8,704 nucleotides of DNA. Source: Candidatus Iainarchaeum sp. (GTDB taxonomy: Archaea; Iainarchaeota; Iainarchaeia; JAGGVJ01). Positions 1,732 to 8,704 of the stretch are shown in pieces. Location of the stretch: NCBI GenBank assembly GCA_021158055.1, contig JAGGVJ010000030.1, positions 1 to 8,704 of the forward strand, read 5' to 3'. The notes beneath the pieces are model-generated. The model searched no databases. It was not told the DNA's origin and saw only the letters and a program-made list of their open reading frames with translations. Position numbers and translations under genes: made by a program. The stretch's first letter is position 1. Every line of letters begins with the position of its first letter.

Positions 1732-3015
1732 ATGGATCAAAAACTCATTGCAATCGGATTAGTGTTGATAGCTGTAATCGGAGCAGGCCTCTTTTTTTAT
1801 GATTACGGGGGAAACTTAATCCCCGCACCTGATAACGGCATCGCCGATGTCTTTTTGGCCGACGACAGCCAGTCGACACCAGAAAAAGTCAGGGCAGTCA
1901 CGCAGGTAAACAACCGGTTCGCATTTGATCTATATCGCACACTCAGCAGCCAGCCCGGCAGCGAAAACCTGTTCTTTTCACCTTACAGCATCTCAACCGC
2001 GCTGGCCATGACTTACGAGGGGGCAAAAGGGCAAACAGCCGACGAAATGCAGTCCGTGCTTCACTTCCCGCAAGACGCCGACATCCGAAGACCAGGGTTT
2101 GCCAAAATTTACAACGACCTCAACAAAAAAGACAAAAACTACGCGCTCTACACCGCAAACGCCCTCTGGGCGCAAAAAGACTACCCTTTCCTGGACGAAT
2201 ACCTTCACACCGCAAGCCAGTACTACGCGGGAAAAACCACCAACCTTGACTTTAAAAAAGAAAACGAAAAATCACGCCTGACAATCAACGCGTGGGTTGA
2301 AGACCAGACAAACAACAAAATAGAAAACCTGATTGAAAAAGGCGACCTGCCCCCAATAACGCGCCTGGTTCTCACAAACGCAATTTACTTCAAAGGCAAA
2401 TGGCTCAAGCAATTCGACGAAAAAAACACAACAGAACAGGACTTCAAAATAAACAATAAAACAACCGTCAAAGTGCCCTTGATGAGCTTAACAGGTGAAG
2501 AAGCCACTTTCAGCTACGGCGAAACAAACGAGCTTCAGATCATTGAACTTCCATACCAAGGAGAAGAACTGTCAATGCTGATCCTCCTGCCGAAAGAAAA
2601 CGAAAAACTGGCTGAAATCGAAAACCGGCTGAATGCAGAAACCGTGACCGGATTCAAAAACACAATGGCAAAACAACACGTAAACGTGTTCCTGCCCAAA
2701 TTCACATTTGAAACCAAATACTACTTAAAAGCAACCCTGAGCGGCATGGGAATGCCTACGGCGTTCTCAGACAGCGCAGACTTCTCAGGCATGGACGGAA
2801 CCGAAATCCTCAAGATAGGCAAAGTCATTCACCAGGCATTCGTTGAAGTAAACGAAGAAGGCACCGAAGCCGCCGCCGCAACCGCAGTGATAATGGTGCT
2901 AAAAGAATCAGTCGTGCCGAAAACAACCTTCCGCGCAGACCACCCGTTCATATTCATCATCTGGGACAACAACGAAAACATACTGTTCATGGGCAAAGTA
3001 ATTGACCCGAGATAA
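1732..3015 (+). CDS. Serpin-family protease inhibitor, membrane-anchored or secreted
   Basis: Serpins inhibit proteases, mostly serine proteases, by a suicide mechanism: the reactive-centre loop is cut and inserts into a beta sheet, trapping the enzyme. This 427-residue protein starts with a short charged end (MDQK) and a hydrophobic segment (about 5-23), a signal peptide or membrane anchor that places the inhibitor outside the cell. There is no lipobox cysteine. The serpin fold follows from about residue 55. It contains the breach and shutter motifs FSPYSISTALAM and TNAIYFKGKW, and ends with HPFIFII and FMGKVIDP. The loop hinge GTEAAAATA (377-385) has the small residues needed for insertion, so the protein should be inhibitory. 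Spacing like that of antithrombin puts Lys391-Glu392 at P1-P1', predicting a trypsin-like target. It has its own promoter and no obvious functional link to its neighbours. Confidence 0.95.
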   Translation: MDQKLIAIGLVLIAVIGAGLFFYDYGGNLIPAPDNGIADVFLADDSQSTPEKVRAVTQVNNRFAFDLYRTLSSQPGSENLFFSPYSISTALAMTYEGAKGQTADEMQSVLHFPQDADIRRPGFAKIYNDLNKKDKNYALYTANALWAQKDYPFLDEYLHTASQYYAGKTTNLDFKKENEKSRLTINAWVEDQTNNKIENLIEKGDLPPITRLVLTNAIYFKGKWLKQFDEKNTTEQDFKINNKTTVKVPLMSLTGEEATFSYGETNELQIIELPYQGEELSMLILLPKENEKLAEIENRLNAETVTGFKNTMAKQHVNVFLPKFTFETKYYLKATLSGMGMPTAFSDSADFSGMDGTEILKIGKVIHQAFVEVNEEGTEAAAATAVIMVLKESVVPKTTFRADHPFIFIIWDNNENILFMGKVIDPR

Positions 3016-3159: not shown

Positions 3160-3725
3160 ATGGCAAAAAAAGCATTCATTATTCACGGCTGGGAAGGATT
3201 CCCGGAAGAAGGCTGGTTTCCCTGGTTAAAACAACAACTTGAAAACAACGGCTTCACTGTTTGCGTCCCTGAAATGCCTGACACCAAACACCCCAAAATC
3301 AACGAATGGGTCAATACCATAAAAAAAACTTGTCGGAACCGCAACTGAAAACACAATCCTTATCGGGCACTCGGTCGGCTGCCAGGCGATACCTTCAAAC
3401 CCTTGAAAAAAACACAAAAATCAAGGGAATCGTGTTTGTTGCAGGATAGGTGCACCTCACAAATCTGACCGAAGAAGAAAAAACAACAATTGCGCCGTGG
3501 CAGAACACCCCAATTCAATTTGACAAAATCACAGGACATATAAACAAATGCACAGCCATTTTTTCAGACAACGACCTATGGGTGCCGATAACTGACTCAA
3601 GAATATTTGAAGAAAAACTAAACGCAAAAATACTCATTGAACACAACAAAAACCACATTTGCGGAGACGACAACATCACAGAACTGCCTGTCATATTGCG
3701 CGAAGTGCTGGAAATGACCCAATAA
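3160..3725 (+). pseudogene. Broken RBBP9/YdeN-family serine hydrolase
   Basis: Three segments in two further frames together spell one alpha/beta hydrolase of the RBBP9/YdeN family (about 185-190 residues). Segment 1 (from 3160) has the oxyanion-side start KAFIIHGWEGFPEEGWFPWL. An A8 run at 3321-3328 shifts the frame. Segment 2 (3329-3388) carries the nucleophile elbow ILIGHSVGCQA, with Ser at 3371-3373. A second shift near 3389 leads to segment 3, YLQTLEKN...VFVAG, which meets an in-frame TAG at 3447-3449. The frame then continues to 3725 with the acid (SDNDLWVP) and the His (NKNH). One extra A in the homopolymer, a loss of about 8 bp (the residues Leu-Arg expected between QAI and YLQ are missing) and a nonsense codon would explain it. 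All three catalytic residues survive, suggesting recent inactivation. Sequencing error could explain one lesion but hardly all three. Confidence 0.88.
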
Positions 3726-5104: not shown

Positions 5105-5112
5105 TTTATATA
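5105..5112 (+). promoter_or_regulatory. TATA box of the cofactor operon
   Basis: The sequence tttatata is the best TATA box in the window, centred about 27 bp upstream of the ATG at 5136. It predicts transcription starting at or next to that ATG, hence a leaderless first gene. This argues that the in-frame ATG at 5118 is not used, since it would lie outside the transcript. Confidence 0.7.
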
Positions 5113-5114
5113 AG

Positions 5115-5133
5115 ATAATGCATTATAATGCAT
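5115..5133. promoter_or_regulatory. Palindromic, 10-bp-phased operator candidate
   Basis: ATAATGCATTAT at 5115-5126 is a perfect 12-bp palindrome. Its half ATAATGCAT recurs at 5125-5133, exactly 10 bp downstream, one helical turn. The block fills the space between the TATA box and the predicted transcription start, where a bound protein would block polymerase recruitment in archaea. A dimeric helix-turn-helix repressor is the natural candidate, and the first gene of the operon encodes one. Confidence 0.6.
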
Positions 5134-5135
5134 AT

Positions 5136-5669
5136 ATGGTTAAGCCAAGAAAAATCAAAATCGTAAACTTCAAACCAGACGTCACTTACTTCAAACCAAA
5201 AGCAGTGCCTTTAAGCCAATTGAAGGAAATTGAATTAACTATTGACGAGCTGGAAACAATGCGGCTGGCAAACCTTGAAAAACTGAATCAGGCAGACGCC
5301 GCCGTTAAAATGAAAATTCACCAGTCAACTTTTCAAAGGACACTGACAAGGGCAAAAGAAAAAATTACCAACGCCCTGGTCAACGGCAAGGCAATAAAAA
5401 TCCATGGAGGCGATTATACAATGCCAGGAAGAGACAGGACCGGACCGCCCGGAGCAGGTTTTGGAAGAGGGCGAGGGGCAGGAATAGGAAGAGGATTAGG
5501 AAGAATGCAGGGACCGCTGGCTGCCGGACCGCTGGGCAACTGCAAATGCCCGAAATGCGGATTTGAACAGATGCACACAAGAGGACAGCCATGCAACCTG
5601 ACAAAATGCCCAAAATGCGGCACCCTGATGGTCAGGATCGACTTACCCCAAAATCAACGGGAAAATTGA
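5136..5669 (+). CDS. DUF134 HTH regulator with DUF5320-like tail and zinc ribbon
   Basis: Likely DNA-binding regulator of the operon. Residues 1-93 match DUF134 (COG1342): PRKIKIVNFKP...YFKPKAVPL, then DELETMRLANLEKLNQADAA, then TFQRTLTRAKEKITNALVNGKAI. This is a sigma-70-region-4-like helix-turn-helix. Residues 96-134 start MPGRDRTGPPGAG and are rich in Gly and Arg, resembling DUF5320, usually a separate small protein next to MTH1175-type genes. The end carries a zinc ribbon with CPKCG at 138-142 and again at 158-162, plus Cys136 and Cys153, which might instead bind iron-sulfur or another metal. The start at 5136 (177 residues) is chosen because the promoter spacing fits and DUF134 begins there; a longer frame from 4944 would add 64 unrelated residues. 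The Cys-rich tail suggests metal or redox sensing (inference). Confidence 0.85.
   Translation: MVKPRKIKIVNFKPDVTYFKPKAVPLSQLKEIELTIDELETMRLANLEKLNQADAAVKMKIHQSTFQRTLTRAKEKITNALVNGKAIKIHGGDYTMPGRDRTGPPGAGFGRGRGAGIGRGLGRMQGPLAAGPLGNCKCPKCGFEQMHTRGQPCNLTKCPKCGTLMVRIDLPQNQREN
5406..5421 (+). promoter_or_regulatory. Internal Shine-Dalgarno-like site before Met96
   Basis: GGAGG at 5406-5410 lies 10 bases before an in-frame ATG at 5421. That ATG is exactly where the DUF5320-like part begins (MPGRDRTGP). Internal initiation would give a separate 82-residue Gly/Arg-rich zinc-ribbon protein. The same bases encode the conserved Gly-Gly of DUF134, so the match may be fortuitous. Confidence 0.35.
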
Positions 5670-5700
5670 ACAACACAAAATAAAGGCAATAAAAACAAAA

Positions 5701-5708
5701 AGGAGGGG
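5701..5708 (+). promoter_or_regulatory. Strong Shine-Dalgarno of the NifX-like gene
   Basis: AGGAGGGG ends 5 bases before the ATG at 5714. It is the only strong ribosome binding site at an annotated gene start in the window. It shows that the host ribosome uses Shine-Dalgarno pairing for genes inside an operon, while first genes appear leaderless. Confidence 0.8.
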
Positions 5709-5713
5709 TAAAA

Positions 5714-6469
5714 ATGAAAATTGCAATAAGCACTGAAAAAAAAACAATGGACAGTCTGGTAGACCAGAGGTTCGGAAGATGCAAGTACTTCTTGATAATG
5801 GAACTTGAAAACGGAAACCCGGTTAACGTAAAAGCCGTGGAAAACCTGGGGGCGTTGCAGGGGCACGGAGCCGGGATTCAGGCATCCCAGCAACTAGGTG
5901 AACTGGGAATTGAAGCAGTAATCACCGGAAACCTCGGGCCAAACGCAACAGAGGTGCTTAACCAGTTAGGCATCAAGGCATACGCTGCATCCGGCACTGC
6001 AAAAGACGCGGTTGAAAAATTCAGCCAGGGAACACTGGGGAAAATAAACAAAACTGCCGAACCTCACGCAGGAATGGGTTTCCAGACACAGAAAGAAAGC
6101 GAAGATAAAACAAGTGAAAAAATATTTTTTCCTTTGCTGGATGACAACGGAACAGATTCAAAAATATCACCTCATTTCGGGCACGCTCCATTTTTTGGTT
6201 TGTTTGATACGGGAACAAAAAAACTCACAATAACCGAAAATACATTAACCCACACAGACCCAAACAAATCACCAGTTGACCAGATTATTGAAGCCGTCAA
6301 CCCCACTATTGTGTTTGCGCAGGGAATCGGGGGCAGAGCCATTGCGCTGTTCAACGAAAAAGGCATTTCCCTCAAGACAGGACCTTACACAACAGCAGGG
6401 GAAGCAATAAATAACCTTGACAAGCTGTCGAAACTAACAACAGACTGCGGGCAAGGGGTCTTTGACTAA
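5714..6469 (+). CDS. Tandem NifX/MTH1175-type cofactor-binding protein
   Basis: This protein contains two copies of the dinitrogenase iron-molybdenum cofactor fold (NifX/NifY/NifB C-terminal family, also MTH1175). These small domains hold metal clusters during assembly or transfer. Copy 1 spans about 1-112: MKIAISTEKKTMDSLVDQRFGRCKYF, then GHGAGIQASQQL, IEAVITGNLGPNA and GIKAYAA. Copy 2 spans about 136-245: IFFPLLDDNGTDSKISPHFGHAPFF, then VNPTIVFAQGIGGRA and GISLKTGPY. A linker of about 25 residues joins them. MTH1175-type proteins usually have one copy, so this is a fusion or internal duplication. Both copies keep the F-G-R/H loop (RFGRC, HFGHA); Cys23 in copy 1 and Cys245 near the end are possible ligands. 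A strong Shine-Dalgarno precedes it. Regulator upstream and MinD/ferredoxin ATPases downstream place it in cofactor handling. There is no sign of nitrogenase genes. Confidence 0.9.
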   Translation: MKIAISTEKKTMDSLVDQRFGRCKYFLIMELENGNPVNVKAVENLGALQGHGAGIQASQQLGELGIEAVITGNLGPNATEVLNQLGIKAYAASGTAKDAVEKFSQGTLGKINKTAEPHAGMGFQTQKESEDKTSEKIFFPLLDDNGTDSKISPHFGHAPFFGLFDTGTKKLTITENTLTHTDPNKSPVDQIIEAVNPTIVFAQGIGGRAIALFNEKGISLKTGPYTTAGEAINNLDKLSKLTTDCGQGVFD

Positions 6470-6508
6470 CCAAACCAAGTATAAACAACTGAAAAAACGA
6501 GGGTTCAA

Positions 6509-7399
6509 ATGACAATAGTAGTGGGAATAACAGGTGGAAAAGGCGGGACAGGCAAATCCACGGTAGCCACGGCTCTTGCGTGCGAGCTGGCAAAAGAACA
6601 CAAGGTCCTTTTAGCGGACGCCGACGTTGACTGTCCCGACGACCACCTGCTGCTGAACATAAAAAGGGAATTTCACAGCACAGTCGAGCAAAGGATACCG
6701 AAATGGGATTTTGACAAATGCATCAAATGCGGTTTGTGCGGGACTGTCTGCAAAACAAACGCCATCGTGTCAATCAAAAACAAAAACCCCTTATTCATAC
6801 AGGCCCAGTGCAACGGCTGCGGATCATGCGTATTAAAATGCCCGGTAAACGCCATCGGGTGGAACAAGAAAGACATCGGAACAGTATTCACGGGTTCAAA
6901 TCACGGCATTGACCTCTTGTCAGGGGAACTGAAAACCAGCGAGCCCACTTCAGAGTTCATTGTGAACGCGTTAAACGAAGTAATTGAAGAAAAAAAATCC
7001 GAATACGACTACATCTTTATTGACACTGCGGCGGGAACACACTGCCCGGTGATTGCCGCACTTGAAATGTGCGACGTTGTCTACGCAGTCACAGAACCCA
7101 CGCCTTTGGGCTGCCACGACCTGGAAATAATTTTGAATCTCCTGAAAAGGCTCAAAATTGAGGCAAACATCGTATTAAACCGCTCGGACATCGGGGACAA
7201 AAAAATAATTCATGACCTTGCTAAAAAATTTGACTCAAGCATAACCGCTGAAATCCCTTACTCAAAAGAAATAGTCAAACAATACTCGCACGGAGAACCG
7301 ATTACAAACAGTGACATCATAAAAATAGCTAAAGAGCTGGTTGAAAAAATAGCTAAAGAGCTGGTTGAAAAAACAGCTGAAGAGATGATCAAAAGATGA
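6509..7399 (+). CDS. MinD-family ATPase with inserted 2x[4Fe-4S] ferredoxin (first copy)
   Basis: A P-loop ATPase of the MinD/Mrp group with a ferredoxin domain inserted in it (COG1149). It probably couples ATP hydrolysis to electron transfer or metal-cluster delivery. The deviant Walker A motif GGKGGTGKST (9-18) has the signature Lys11 used in dimer catalysis. DADVDCPDDHL follows at 37-47. Two 4Fe-4S motifs come next: Cys71, 74, 77, 81 and Cys101, 104, 107, 111-Pro. The family motif IDTAAGTHCPV (171-181) is present. The segment after the ferredoxin is shorter than in the second copy and lacks the GESGSGK-type stretch seen there. The last 25 residues contain a duplicated KIAKELVE. A gaggg sequence 5 bases before the ATG serves as ribosome binding site. 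The last four bases overlap the next gene (ATGA), so translation is coupled. Confidence 0.93.
   Translation: MTIVVGITGGKGGTGKSTVATALACELAKEHKVLLADADVDCPDDHLLLNIKREFHSTVEQRIPKWDFDKCIKCGLCGTVCKTNAIVSIKNKNPLFIQAQCNGCGSCVLKCPVNAIGWNKKDIGTVFTGSNHGIDLLSGELKTSEPTSEFIVNALNEVIEEKKSEYDYIFIDTAAGTHCPVIAALEMCDVVYAVTEPTPLGCHDLEIILNLLKRLKIEANIVLNRSDIGDKKIIHDLAKKFDSSITAEIPYSKEIVKQYSHGEPITNSDIIKIAKELVEKIAKELVEKTAEEMIKR
7322..7384 (+). repeat. 24-bp tandem duplication at the end of the first MinD gene
   Basis: Bases 7322-7345 and 7346-7369 are identical, and 7370-7384 is a third, partial copy with two differences. The unit is a multiple of three and encodes KIAKELVE, so it lengthens the C-terminal helix by whole turns without changing frame. 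The exactness of the two full copies points to a recent event. Confidence 0.95.
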
Positions 7400-7809
7400 A
7401 AGGAGTGTACTGCCTGGTGATAAGCGTTCAAAAAGACATTAATGTGAAAATCGGTGCAATCGGCAGGACAACCTTCAAAAAAGGAAAATACGTTTACGTC
7501 GGCTCGGCTCAAAACAGCCTTGAAAAAAGAACTGCAAGGCATTTCCGGGAAGGCGAAGGCAAAAAGACAAGGTGGCACATTGACTACCTGCTTGAAAATG
7601 CTGACGCAAAACCGGAAAAAGCGCTTTACAAAAACGCAGGAAAAGAAGAAGAGTGCGCAATTGCACTGCACCTGGCAAAAACCGAAGAGCCGGTAAAAGG
7701 GTTCGGGTGCTCTGACTGCAAATGCAGTTCGCATTTGTTCAGAATGAAATCATTAAAGGAATTAAACAATTTAAAACTGAAAAACTTAAAACTGAAAAAA
7801 CTGGTTTGA
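7396..7809 (+). CDS. DUF123 (Uri-type) GIY-YIG endonuclease
   Basis: A compact member of the DUF123/COG1833 branch of the GIY-YIG nuclease superfamily, common in archaea and little studied. The domain is complete: GVYCLVI (3-9), YVYVGSA (32-38), the arginine helix LEKRTARHF (42-50), RWHIDYLL (59-66), EEEC with the likely metal-binding Glu86, and the Cys-rich end GFGCSDCKCSSHLF (102-115). Residues 116-137 form a Leu/Lys-rich tail made by a 15-bp repeat and are probably dispensable. The start is fixed by the four-base overlap with the upstream ATPase gene and by the GVY motif directly after it. One base separates its stop from the next ATPase gene. A nuclease between two paralogous cofactor ATPases is unexpected; its link to them may be shared expression only. 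No intron or intein is seen, so it is not evidently a homing enzyme. Confidence 0.9.
   Translation: MKGVYCLVISVQKDINVKIGAIGRTTFKKGKYVYVGSAQNSLEKRTARHFREGEGKKTRWHIDYLLENADAKPEKALYKNAGKEEECAIALHLAKTEEPVKGFGCSDCKCSSHLFRMKSLKELNNLKLKNLKLKKLV
7771..7800 (+). repeat. 15-bp tandem duplication at the end of the DUF123 gene
   Basis: ttaaaactgaaaaac at 7771-7785 is followed by a copy at 7786-7800 that differs at one position. It encodes the LKLKN-LKLKK part of the tail. The unit is a multiple of three, so the frame is kept. Confidence 0.85.
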
Positions 7810-7810
7810 A

Positions 7811-8704
7811 ATGAAAACAATAACTATACTAAGCGGAAAAGGAGGCGTGGGAAAAAGCAGCATCACAGCGTCTTTAGCCATTGCCATGTCCAAAAGCAGG
7901 AAAATCATCTGCGCTGACTGCGACGTCGACGCTTCAAACCTTGCCTTGGTTTTCGGCATTTCCGAAGACAGCTTTGAAGAATGGGATCTGCTTTCAACAA
8001 ACCAAAAAGCAGAATTTGACCTGGAAAAATGCAACTCCTGCAGGCAATGCGTTGAAACCTGCTATTTCAACGCAATAAGCTGGGTGGACAACAAGCCCAA
8101 GCTAAAAGAATTCGGGTGCGAGGGGTGCAAAGCATGCAAGATTGTCTGCCCAAAAGACGCAATCAGGTTAGTTGACGTATTCAATGCAAAAATCGGCTAC
8201 TCAAAAACAAAATACGGCTTTACAGTTGTTTCGGCACAGCTGACCATGGGAGAATCAGGCTCAGGAAAAGTGGTCAGCGAAGTAAAGAAAAAAGCCACAC
8301 TTTTAGCCGGCAACAGCGAAAACTCAACTGAAATCATGCTGGTTGACTCGGCGGCAGGCATCGGCTGCCCGGTCATTGCGTCAGTTGCAGGCAGCGACTT
8401 TGTGATTATTGTCACCGAACCCACGGTTTCAGGGTTTTCCGACATGAAAAGAGCACTGGAAGTTGTAAACCACTTCCGGATTCCCTGCGAGATCATAATA
8501 AACAAATTTGACATAAACATGGATCAAACTGAAAAAACAGAGCGGTTTGCAAAAGAAAACGGAATTGAAATCCTTTCCAGAATCCCGTACGACAAAGCAT
8601 TTTCAGAAGCGCTGGTCAACATGACTCCCATTGCAGTGCATGAAAAAAAATACGAAAAACTGTTTGACGATCTTTCAGAAAAACTGCTTTTTGATTTCAG
8701 GTAA
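7811..8704 (+). CDS. MinD-family ATPase with inserted 2x[4Fe-4S] ferredoxin (second copy)
   Basis: This is a paralogue of the ATPase encoded at 6509 and the more canonical COG1149 member. The deviant Walker A motif is GKGGVGKSS (9-17) with signature Lys10. ADCDVDASNL (35-44) is the usual MinD/Mrp switch region. The inserted ferredoxin has Cys74, 77, 80, 84 and Cys103, 106, 109, 113-Pro. The stretch FTVVSAQLTMGESGSGKVVSEV (about 137-158) is the family's lid segment, which the first copy lacks. The Walker B-like motif LVDSAAGIGCPVIAS follows at 177-191, then VTEPTVSGFSD. The ATG lies one base after the preceding stop, with no Shine-Dalgarno, so translation is probably coupled. The protein is complete, its stop being the last three bases of the window. 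With the first copy it may form a heterodimer, as MinD-type ATPases work as dimers (inference). Confidence 0.94.
   Translation: MKTITILSGKGGVGKSSITASLAIAMSKSRKIICADCDVDASNLALVFGISEDSFEEWDLLSTNQKAEFDLEKCNSCRQCVETCYFNAISWVDNKPKLKEFGCEGCKACKIVCPKDAIRLVDVFNAKIGYSKTKYGFTVVSAQLTMGESGSGKVVSEVKKKATLLAGNSENSTEIMLVDSAAGIGCPVIASVAGSDFVIIVTEPTVSGFSDMKRALEVVNHFRIPCEIIINKFDINMDQTEKTERFAKENGIEILSRIPYDKAFSEALVNMTPIAVHEKKYEKLFDDLSEKLLFDFR

Follow-up and report, generated by a model that had tools for sequence, protein, structure and literature searches.

An archaeal variant of the ORP-type operon in Candidatus Iainarchaeum sp., with a predicted DUF134 operator

Known systems and the archaeal locus

The role of the orange protein (ORP) complex of Desulfovibrio has been an open question for two decades. 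In D. vulgaris Hildenborough (orp1/orp2 operons), two paralogous MinD/ferredoxin ATPases and a NifX-type protein are found among Orp3, Orp4 and Orp8, which are reported to co-purify and to accept Fe-S from MrpORP (PMC6345978). Here we describe a similar gene set in the archaeon Candidatus Iainarchaeum sp. The window, that is the whole stretch analysed, is the 8704-bp contig JAGGVJ010000030.1 (C9) of a 1.15-Mb assembly that is 94.9% complete. Five genes at 5136-8704, all on the + strand, encode DUF134, a two-domain NifX protein, a MinD/ferredoxin ATPase, DUF123 and a second MinD/ferredoxin ATPase. TATA-type promoters and the gene content likewise point to an archaeal host. Judged from sequence comparison, the operon is best explained as the archaeal form, with slight rearrangement, of an ORP-type operon that occurs in both domains.

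The features of the operon are as follows.

5105..5112, + strand: TATA-like element TTTATATA, assigned from the sequence and from relatives with TTTAAATA in the same place
5118..5133, no strand: perfect 16-bp palindrome ATGCATTATAATGCAT, predicted DUF134 operator, assigned from its copies in the genome and its position and geometry in relatives
5136..5669, + strand: DUF134 gene (PF02001), with a sigma-region-4-like helix-turn-helix (HTH), a Gly/Arg-rich linker and a C-terminal Cys ribbon
5541..5648, + strand: Cys ribbon CxCPxCGx5HxRGxPCx4CPxCG on DUF134, from an alignment with 12 invariant columns
5714..6469, + strand: tandem NifX protein, N-domain (PF02579) at 5750-6025 and C-domain at 6155-6418
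6509..7399, + strand: 'first'-clade MinD/ferredoxin ATPase, 2x[4Fe-4S] insert at about 6698-6865, switch-II Cys179 at 7043-7045
7396..7809, + strand: DUF123 gene (GIY-YIG-like, Uri-type), with a 4-bp overlap with the first ATPase gene
7811..8704, + strand: 'second'-clade MinD/ferredoxin ATPase, 2x[4Fe-4S] insert at about 8009-8173, switch-II Cys186 at 8366-8368

The genes are tightly packed, with spacings of 44 bp, 39 bp, -4 bp (an overlap) and 1 bp. An earlier note on this DNA had read them as regulator, NifX, ATPase, nuclease and ATPase, and the Pfam profile matches bear this order out: DUF134 matches PF02001 (E=2.4e-22, 79.8 bits, cut-off 27), PF02579 is matched twice in the frame at 5714-6469 (E=1.4e-39), both ATPases match CbiA/ParA plus Fer4, and DUF123 matches PF01986 (E=8.1e-30, 103.6 bits, cut-off 25), with PF01541 slightly below its cut-off. 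An Rfam search in and near the operon gave nothing useful. The last 127 bp of C9 are identical to the first 127 bp of contig C35, an assembly-graph overlap which makes C35 the likely continuation, a unique join not being proven. Past the overlap, C35 carries a cupin gene, an EEP-type hydrolase gene and an MBL-fold gene, the last about 1.3 kb beyond the window.

Compared with the Desulfovibrio ORP cluster, our operon has neither MrpORP nor Orp5; no MrpORP is found in the operon or the C35 continuation, while a canonical Mrp lies on contig C21. DUF134, a TATA-like element and the palindrome are present, whereas no sigma54/OrpR (DVU2106) gene exists in the window. Further differences are the fused NifX pair, DUF123 between the ATPases and the Cys ribbon on DUF134. 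Without MrpORP, Orp5 and sigma54 control, the cluster is therefore a variant of the ORP-type kind and not the ORP complex itself. Another close system is Peptoclostridium acidaminophilum EAL2_RS11320-RS11300 (DUF134-NifX-ATPase-ATPase-MrpORP), whose first four genes come in the same order as in the window, but its NifX is a separate single-domain protein, MrpORP comes next, DUF123 is missing and DUF134 has no ribbon.

The single proteins also have described relatives. IssA of Pyrococcus furiosus and MTH1175 share the NifX domain (IPR003731) of a scaffold, whereas the window protein is a two-domain fusion without the cationic Gly/aromatic-rich C-terminal tail of IssA. NifH/BchL and Mrp/NBP35 (ApbC) have the same SIMIBI fold as the window ATPases, which carry one Cys at the NifH ligand position but contain a ferredoxin insert, form two apparently obligate paralogues, and have neither the second NifH Cys nor the Mrp CxxC. 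DUF134 is a full match to its family (PF02001, COG1342), which has no known function, and differs by its Cys ribbon, its HQS helix and its own operator variant.

An ordered pair of ATPase clades

Trees were built from 113 ATPases, and then from 62 rows with a mixture model. In the former, the 48 upstream copies are separated from the 48 downstream copies with no exception, and every locus with both ATPases contains one 'first' followed by one 'second' (48/48). In the latter, the two ATPase groups are each monophyletic, separated by a branch supported at 100/99 (bootstrap/SH-aLRT), in 100% of bootstraps. This two-clade, fixed-order pair spans small-genome archaea, Clostridia, Chloroflexota and Desulfobacterota including Desulfovibrio. 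The ATPase pair is thus ancient and its order has been kept, which argues for an obligate heteromer.

Moreover, the ORP-like core proposed in the earlier note is supported, since the window ATPases are orthologous, as an ordered pair, to those beside ORP in Desulfobacterota (100/99); the loci in the tree include Desulfovibrio sp. W18 and D. cuneatus, both fetched with D. gigas ORP, as well as Peptoclostridium acidaminophilum, and the D. vulgaris sequences themselves are not included. The sequence of D. gigas ORP (PDB 2WFB) was used to fetch 33 named Desulfobacterota-type loci, most of which have the ATPase pair beside ORP and then a second NifX protein. ORP is fused behind a DUF134 domain in many Desulfobacterota (L110 3152-3856, L111 9599-10348, L122 9605-10363, and others). 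For example, Desulfovibrio sp. W18 contains DUF134, a DUF134::ORP fusion and the two ATPases in this order, and its ORP shares 93% identity with the D. gigas protein. A plasmid of Chloroflexota carries NifX, the two ATPases and DUF59.

In both window ATPases the eight ferredoxin Cys are complete and the Walker A is deviant, with the signature Lys; nearly all copies of both clades retain these features. A switch-II Cys (D-x3-G-x2-C) is found in 46 of 48 first-clade and 48 of 48 second-clade copies. Aligned to NifH by hhalign, the full ATPases match in the P-loop or the C-terminal part only, until the ferredoxin insert is cut out; after its removal, the first-clade switch-II Cys aligns to the NifH cluster ligand Cys (GDVVC). 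For the second clade a shift at switch II persists, and its Cys corresponds by equal spacing only. One of the two NifH ligands is aligned in this way, the second cluster-ligand Cys being absent, and inspection of the sequences revealed no Mrp-type CxxC outside the ferredoxin insert in either window ATPase.

The earlier note had also proposed that the two ATPases differ in the lid segment. Clade-specific positions do set them apart (for example P64 against A67; the second clade also has S8, SG151-152, R214 and F222), although a lid difference as such could not be located. For the first ATPase, structure prediction (pLDDT 84) gives a fold that matches FleN, BchL, ApbC, HypB, MinD and NifH at Z 22-24; the sequence and fold searches returned no solved MinD ATPase structure with a ferredoxin insert. 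At the C-terminus of the first ATPase (7325-7399), a near-perfect 24-bp tandem repeat encodes IAKELVEK twice, a segment which is amphipathic-looking and of low predicted confidence.

A fusion of two NifX types

The closest structure to the NifX N-domain is MTH1175 (E=9.3e-22), and D. gigas ORP (2WFB) is also matched (E=2.9e-11); for the C-domain, TM1816 and PH0822 are the matches. A tree built from 107 NifX domains places the N-domain with the ORP/MTH1175 side, at an SH-aLRT of just 85. The same tree joins the C-domain (98% SH-aLRT, from few columns) to the second NifX protein in each of two related operons and to the DUF134-linked NifX of two others. From these placements, the window gene is a fusion of two NifX types which are separate genes elsewhere. 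The NifX-like carrier of the earlier note is thus to be read as a two-domain protein. No other fused two-NifX copy was seen in the 113 genomes surveyed below, and in related archaeal operons the NifX proteins end in Gly/Arg-rich tails.

The resemblance to ORP raises the possibility that the operon handles Mo-Cu or another heterometal thiometallate, as in D. gigas; the N-domain match to 2WFB and the gene set shared with bacterial ORP loci are in its favour. MTH1175, the closer structure, has been placed in the IssA clade, and the NifX domain of IssA is a thioferrate scaffold (PMC5524996). No molybdenum-related gene was seen in the window (the genome was not searched for Mo genes), and we regard Mo-Cu handling as rather improbable. 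The absence of nitrogenase genes noted earlier extends to the genome, in which PF00148 (NifD/K-like) has no match at 94.9% completeness. We favour Fe-S or thioferrate-like species over Mo-Cu on two grounds, the membership of the closest NifX structure in the IssA clade (PMC5524996) and the lack of a NifD/K homologue.

In the window genome, PF02579 matches only the two NifX domains of this protein, besides a decayed piece near a second DUF134 on contig C43. There (C43:30273-30790; L105 8267-8790), the second DUF134 gene is followed by the decayed NifX piece with a stop and then by two permease-like genes.

Conservation of the neighbourhood

Co-occurrence was summarized in 113 genomes around that of the window; these genomes are related, hence the p-values are descriptive. 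MinD/ferredoxin ATPases were found in 35 of the 113 genomes, 31 of which also contain NifX (p=3.9e-19), and their co-occurrence with DUF134 gives p=1.1e-7. NifX lies on the same contig within 15 kb at 27 of 35 ATPase loci. The earlier note had held that its reading would fall if these genes were not conserved together; the outcome is the opposite, and the ATPase pair, NifX and DUF134 recur together across relatives.

When 39 fetched stretches were mapped, the genes that recur around the ATPases proved to be NifX, a CDF transporter, DUF134, a CcdA/DsbD-like protein, an MBL-fold protein and DUF123, and one lineage adds ferredoxin-thioredoxin-reductase (FTR)-like, glutaredoxin and thioredoxin/PDI proteins. 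The fullest cluster (L082, L083, L085) reads DUF134 - DUF5320-like - ribbon - CDF - NifX - MBL - NifX - DUF123 - ATPase - ATPase. A DUF123 gene exists in 34 of 113 genomes and within the ATPase operon in 9 of those; being present in the fullest clusters, DUF123 is a recurrent, not universal, member of the operon and not an intruder. In some relatives, a radical-SAM protein is found inside the cluster (L077 2989-3756, L089 9694-10383), and for L077 its best NCBIfam match, a weak one, is a tungsten-oxidoreductase maturase.

CDF transporters with a NifX C-terminal domain are among the commonest neighbours (16 loci), and in L087 and L092 the CDF C-terminus is a Cys ribbon in place of the NifX domain. 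The NifX-extended type includes the following.

L082 6396-7613; L089 7156-8409; L096 9089-10390; others: CDF metal transporters with a NifX C-terminal extension

These transporters would suit a regulon for metal export or detoxification, with DUF134 as sensor of free metal, NifX bringing metal or metal-sulfide to the CDF exporter, and the ATPases inserting metal in the manner of the HypB/CooC NTPases instead of donating electrons. The first ATPase has HypB among its best fold matches, and the CDF proteins ending in a Cys ribbon fit as well. However, the window genome has no CDF-NifX, its PF02579 matches being those of the operon protein, and ferredoxin inserts with eight conserved Cys point to electrons or Fe-S, so that we consider metal export unlikely here.

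By the NifH/MinD fold alone, electron transfer and positioning are indistinguishable. A MinD-like system for septum or pole positioning was proposed for the D. vulgaris ORP complex, whose proteins were linked to cell division (PMC3897727), and MinD and FleN are top fold matches of the first ATPase, which ends in the amphipathic-looking repeat. However, the operon contains no MinC/MinE-like partner, the recurrent neighbours have redox or metal functions (FTR-like, thioredoxin/PDI, CcdA, CDF), and the ferredoxin Cys are almost invariant in both clades. Positioning is thus very unlikely in our view, and the ferredoxins and neighbours favour electron transfer.

The palindrome before DUF134

The palindrome ATGCATTATAATGCAT begins 5 nt after TTTATATA and ends 2 nt before the DUF134 start codon. 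Two exact copies exist in the 1.15-Mb genome, compared with 0 for a reversed control pattern, and matches with 2 mismatches elsewhere (C14, C16, C19) are near chance level. The second copy precedes a stand-alone ribbon gene (C39:29087-29351; L146 9087-9351, - strand), which retains the DUF134 tail (KAIKIHGGECE) ahead of the ribbon and has a CcdA-like gene about 0.3 kb downstream. With this tail and the palindrome, the C39 gene looks like a DUF134 duplicate that lost its HTH while its promoter and palindrome were kept.

Relatives have TGAACATATGTTCA-type palindromes at the same position before DUF134, and a consensus TTATGARC-N4-GYTCATAA is found upstream of DUF134 genes in archaea and bacteria; its letters were not found in any of the relevant papers searched. 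In Desulfobacterota the motif overlaps the -10 region of TTGACA-type promoters before DUF134. Among 67 DUF134 upstream regions, 25 have a score of at least 10/12 (0.67 expected from dinucleotide-preserving shuffles), 16 at least 11 (0.03) and 7 the full 12 (0.00), and these expected values understate chance somewhat because the motif was derived partly from the same sequences. As an independent control, 1.24 Mb of loci contain 36 sites of at least 11/12, compared with 2 in the reversed sequence. Seventeen of the 36 were automatically assigned to DUF134 starts, 7 more full-score sites are at DUF134 starts by position, and one lies 41 bp before an ORP gene. Among the strong sites, nearly all mark the start of a DUF134 gene. 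A site between the TATA-like element and the start codon, or over the -10 region, suggests repression.

DUF134 has a predicted sigma-region-4-like HTH with a recognition helix from residue 63 (moderate scores), reading HQS in the window and SR or SQ in relatives. Where the palindrome is present, Arg at residue 63 goes with C at position 6 of the half-sites (19 CC, 2 CA, 1 AA), and Gln goes with T (4 TT, about three lineages, window included). In the usual recognition chemistry, Arg goes with G:C and Gln with A:T. The window DUF134 also has His for Ser at residue 62, and its operator base is changed at position 4. In L194 (about 1450-1521), a DUF134 gene with the Gln-type helix has two upstream palindromes, ATGAATCATTATTCAT and TGAGACATATGTCTCA.

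The palindrome might instead be bound by another regulator, DUF134 being structural or accessory, as the D. vulgaris orp operons are under the sigma54 activator DVU2106 via palindromic sites (PMC3897727). However, the site tracks DUF134 over other genes in the 1.24-Mb scan, and its bases co-vary with the DUF134 recognition helix. Moreover, it precedes DUF134 genes in archaea, which are not known to have sigma54 systems, and we give the other-regulator explanation little credence.

The Cys ribbon

At the C-terminus of DUF134, a Gly/Arg-rich stretch is followed by the 50-residue ribbon, 12 residues of which are invariant across archaea and Desulfobacterota. Searches gave weak sub-threshold zinc-ribbon matches only in Pfam and none in NCBIfam. 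The ribbon exists alone (about 50-60 aa), after DUF134, after CDF and after a NifX-like domain. It was found in 23 of the 113 genomes, with the ATPases in 19 (p=1e-8) and DUF134 in 22 (p=2.9e-8), and of its 27 copies 23 are no more than 1.5 kb from a DUF134 gene. Going by these occurrences, the ribbon is apparently specific to the DUF134/ATPase loci. It might correspond to Orp5, the ORP operon's [2Fe-2S] protein; no copy of the motif was found in the Desulfovibrio loci L110 and L142.

Proposed mechanism

Starting from the gene content, gene order, orthology of the pair, operator conservation and base/residue covariation observed here, we infer operator binding, repression, a heterodimer, electron or cluster transfer and the kind of metal. 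A DUF134 dimer would bind the 16-bp palindrome that separates the TATA box from the DUF134 start codon, and keep the operon repressed until its Cys ribbon, a likely metal, sulfide or redox sensor, senses a change. The two-domain NifX may be the scaffold or carrier of anionic metal-sulfur species, most likely Fe-S or thioferrate-like. The ATPase pair could form a NifH-like heterodimer fed by its own 2x[4Fe-4S] ferredoxin domains, in which ATP hydrolysis and low-potential electrons would be coupled to loading, reducing or releasing the NifX-bound cluster. In summary, we find it moderately probable that this is a DUF134-autoregulated operon which makes a NifX scaffold and an obligate heteromeric ATPase/ferredoxin pair handling metal-sulfur species.

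Several points weigh against this scheme. Because one of the two NifH Cys ligands is absent, the pair may not form an interface cluster of the NifH kind. The NifX tree is based on about 115 columns, and the Gly/Arg tail typical of IssA is not found on the window NifX, whose chain runs into the second NifX domain. DUF123 has no obvious role. The Gln cases are few (four genomes, about three lineages), and the window operator matches the consensus at 8/12, being tied to it by position, symmetry and covariation only. Many DUF134 genes in related genomes lack the palindrome, in many cases since they stand further down in their operon. As a whole, the mechanism is drawn from sequence and predicted structure.

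A broader proposal seems to us evenly balanced between right and wrong: DUF134 would be the ancestral autorepressor of ORP operons, with one operator in Archaea and Bacteria read by an Arg:C/Gln:T code; the ribbon (on DUF134, CDF or NifX) would be a shared sensor or ligand-transfer module; and the core would be a heterodimeric NifH-like ATPase with built-in ferredoxins in cross-domain metal-sulfur homeostasis. That small-genome archaea and sulfate reducers have this core, regulator family and operator in common suggests a metal-sulfur system of old origin that has been conserved, and the roles of the ORP complex and of DUF134 both become testable by short, cheap experiments.

Other genes in the window

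Upstream of the operon, the gene at 1732-3015 encodes a serpin of full length (PF00079, E=1.8e-127), whose N-terminus includes a hydrophobic segment. At 3160-3725, a serine hydrolase match (PF06821) lies in a 62-aa frame that stops early; a 91-aa frame comes next, suggesting a frameshift or a pseudogene.

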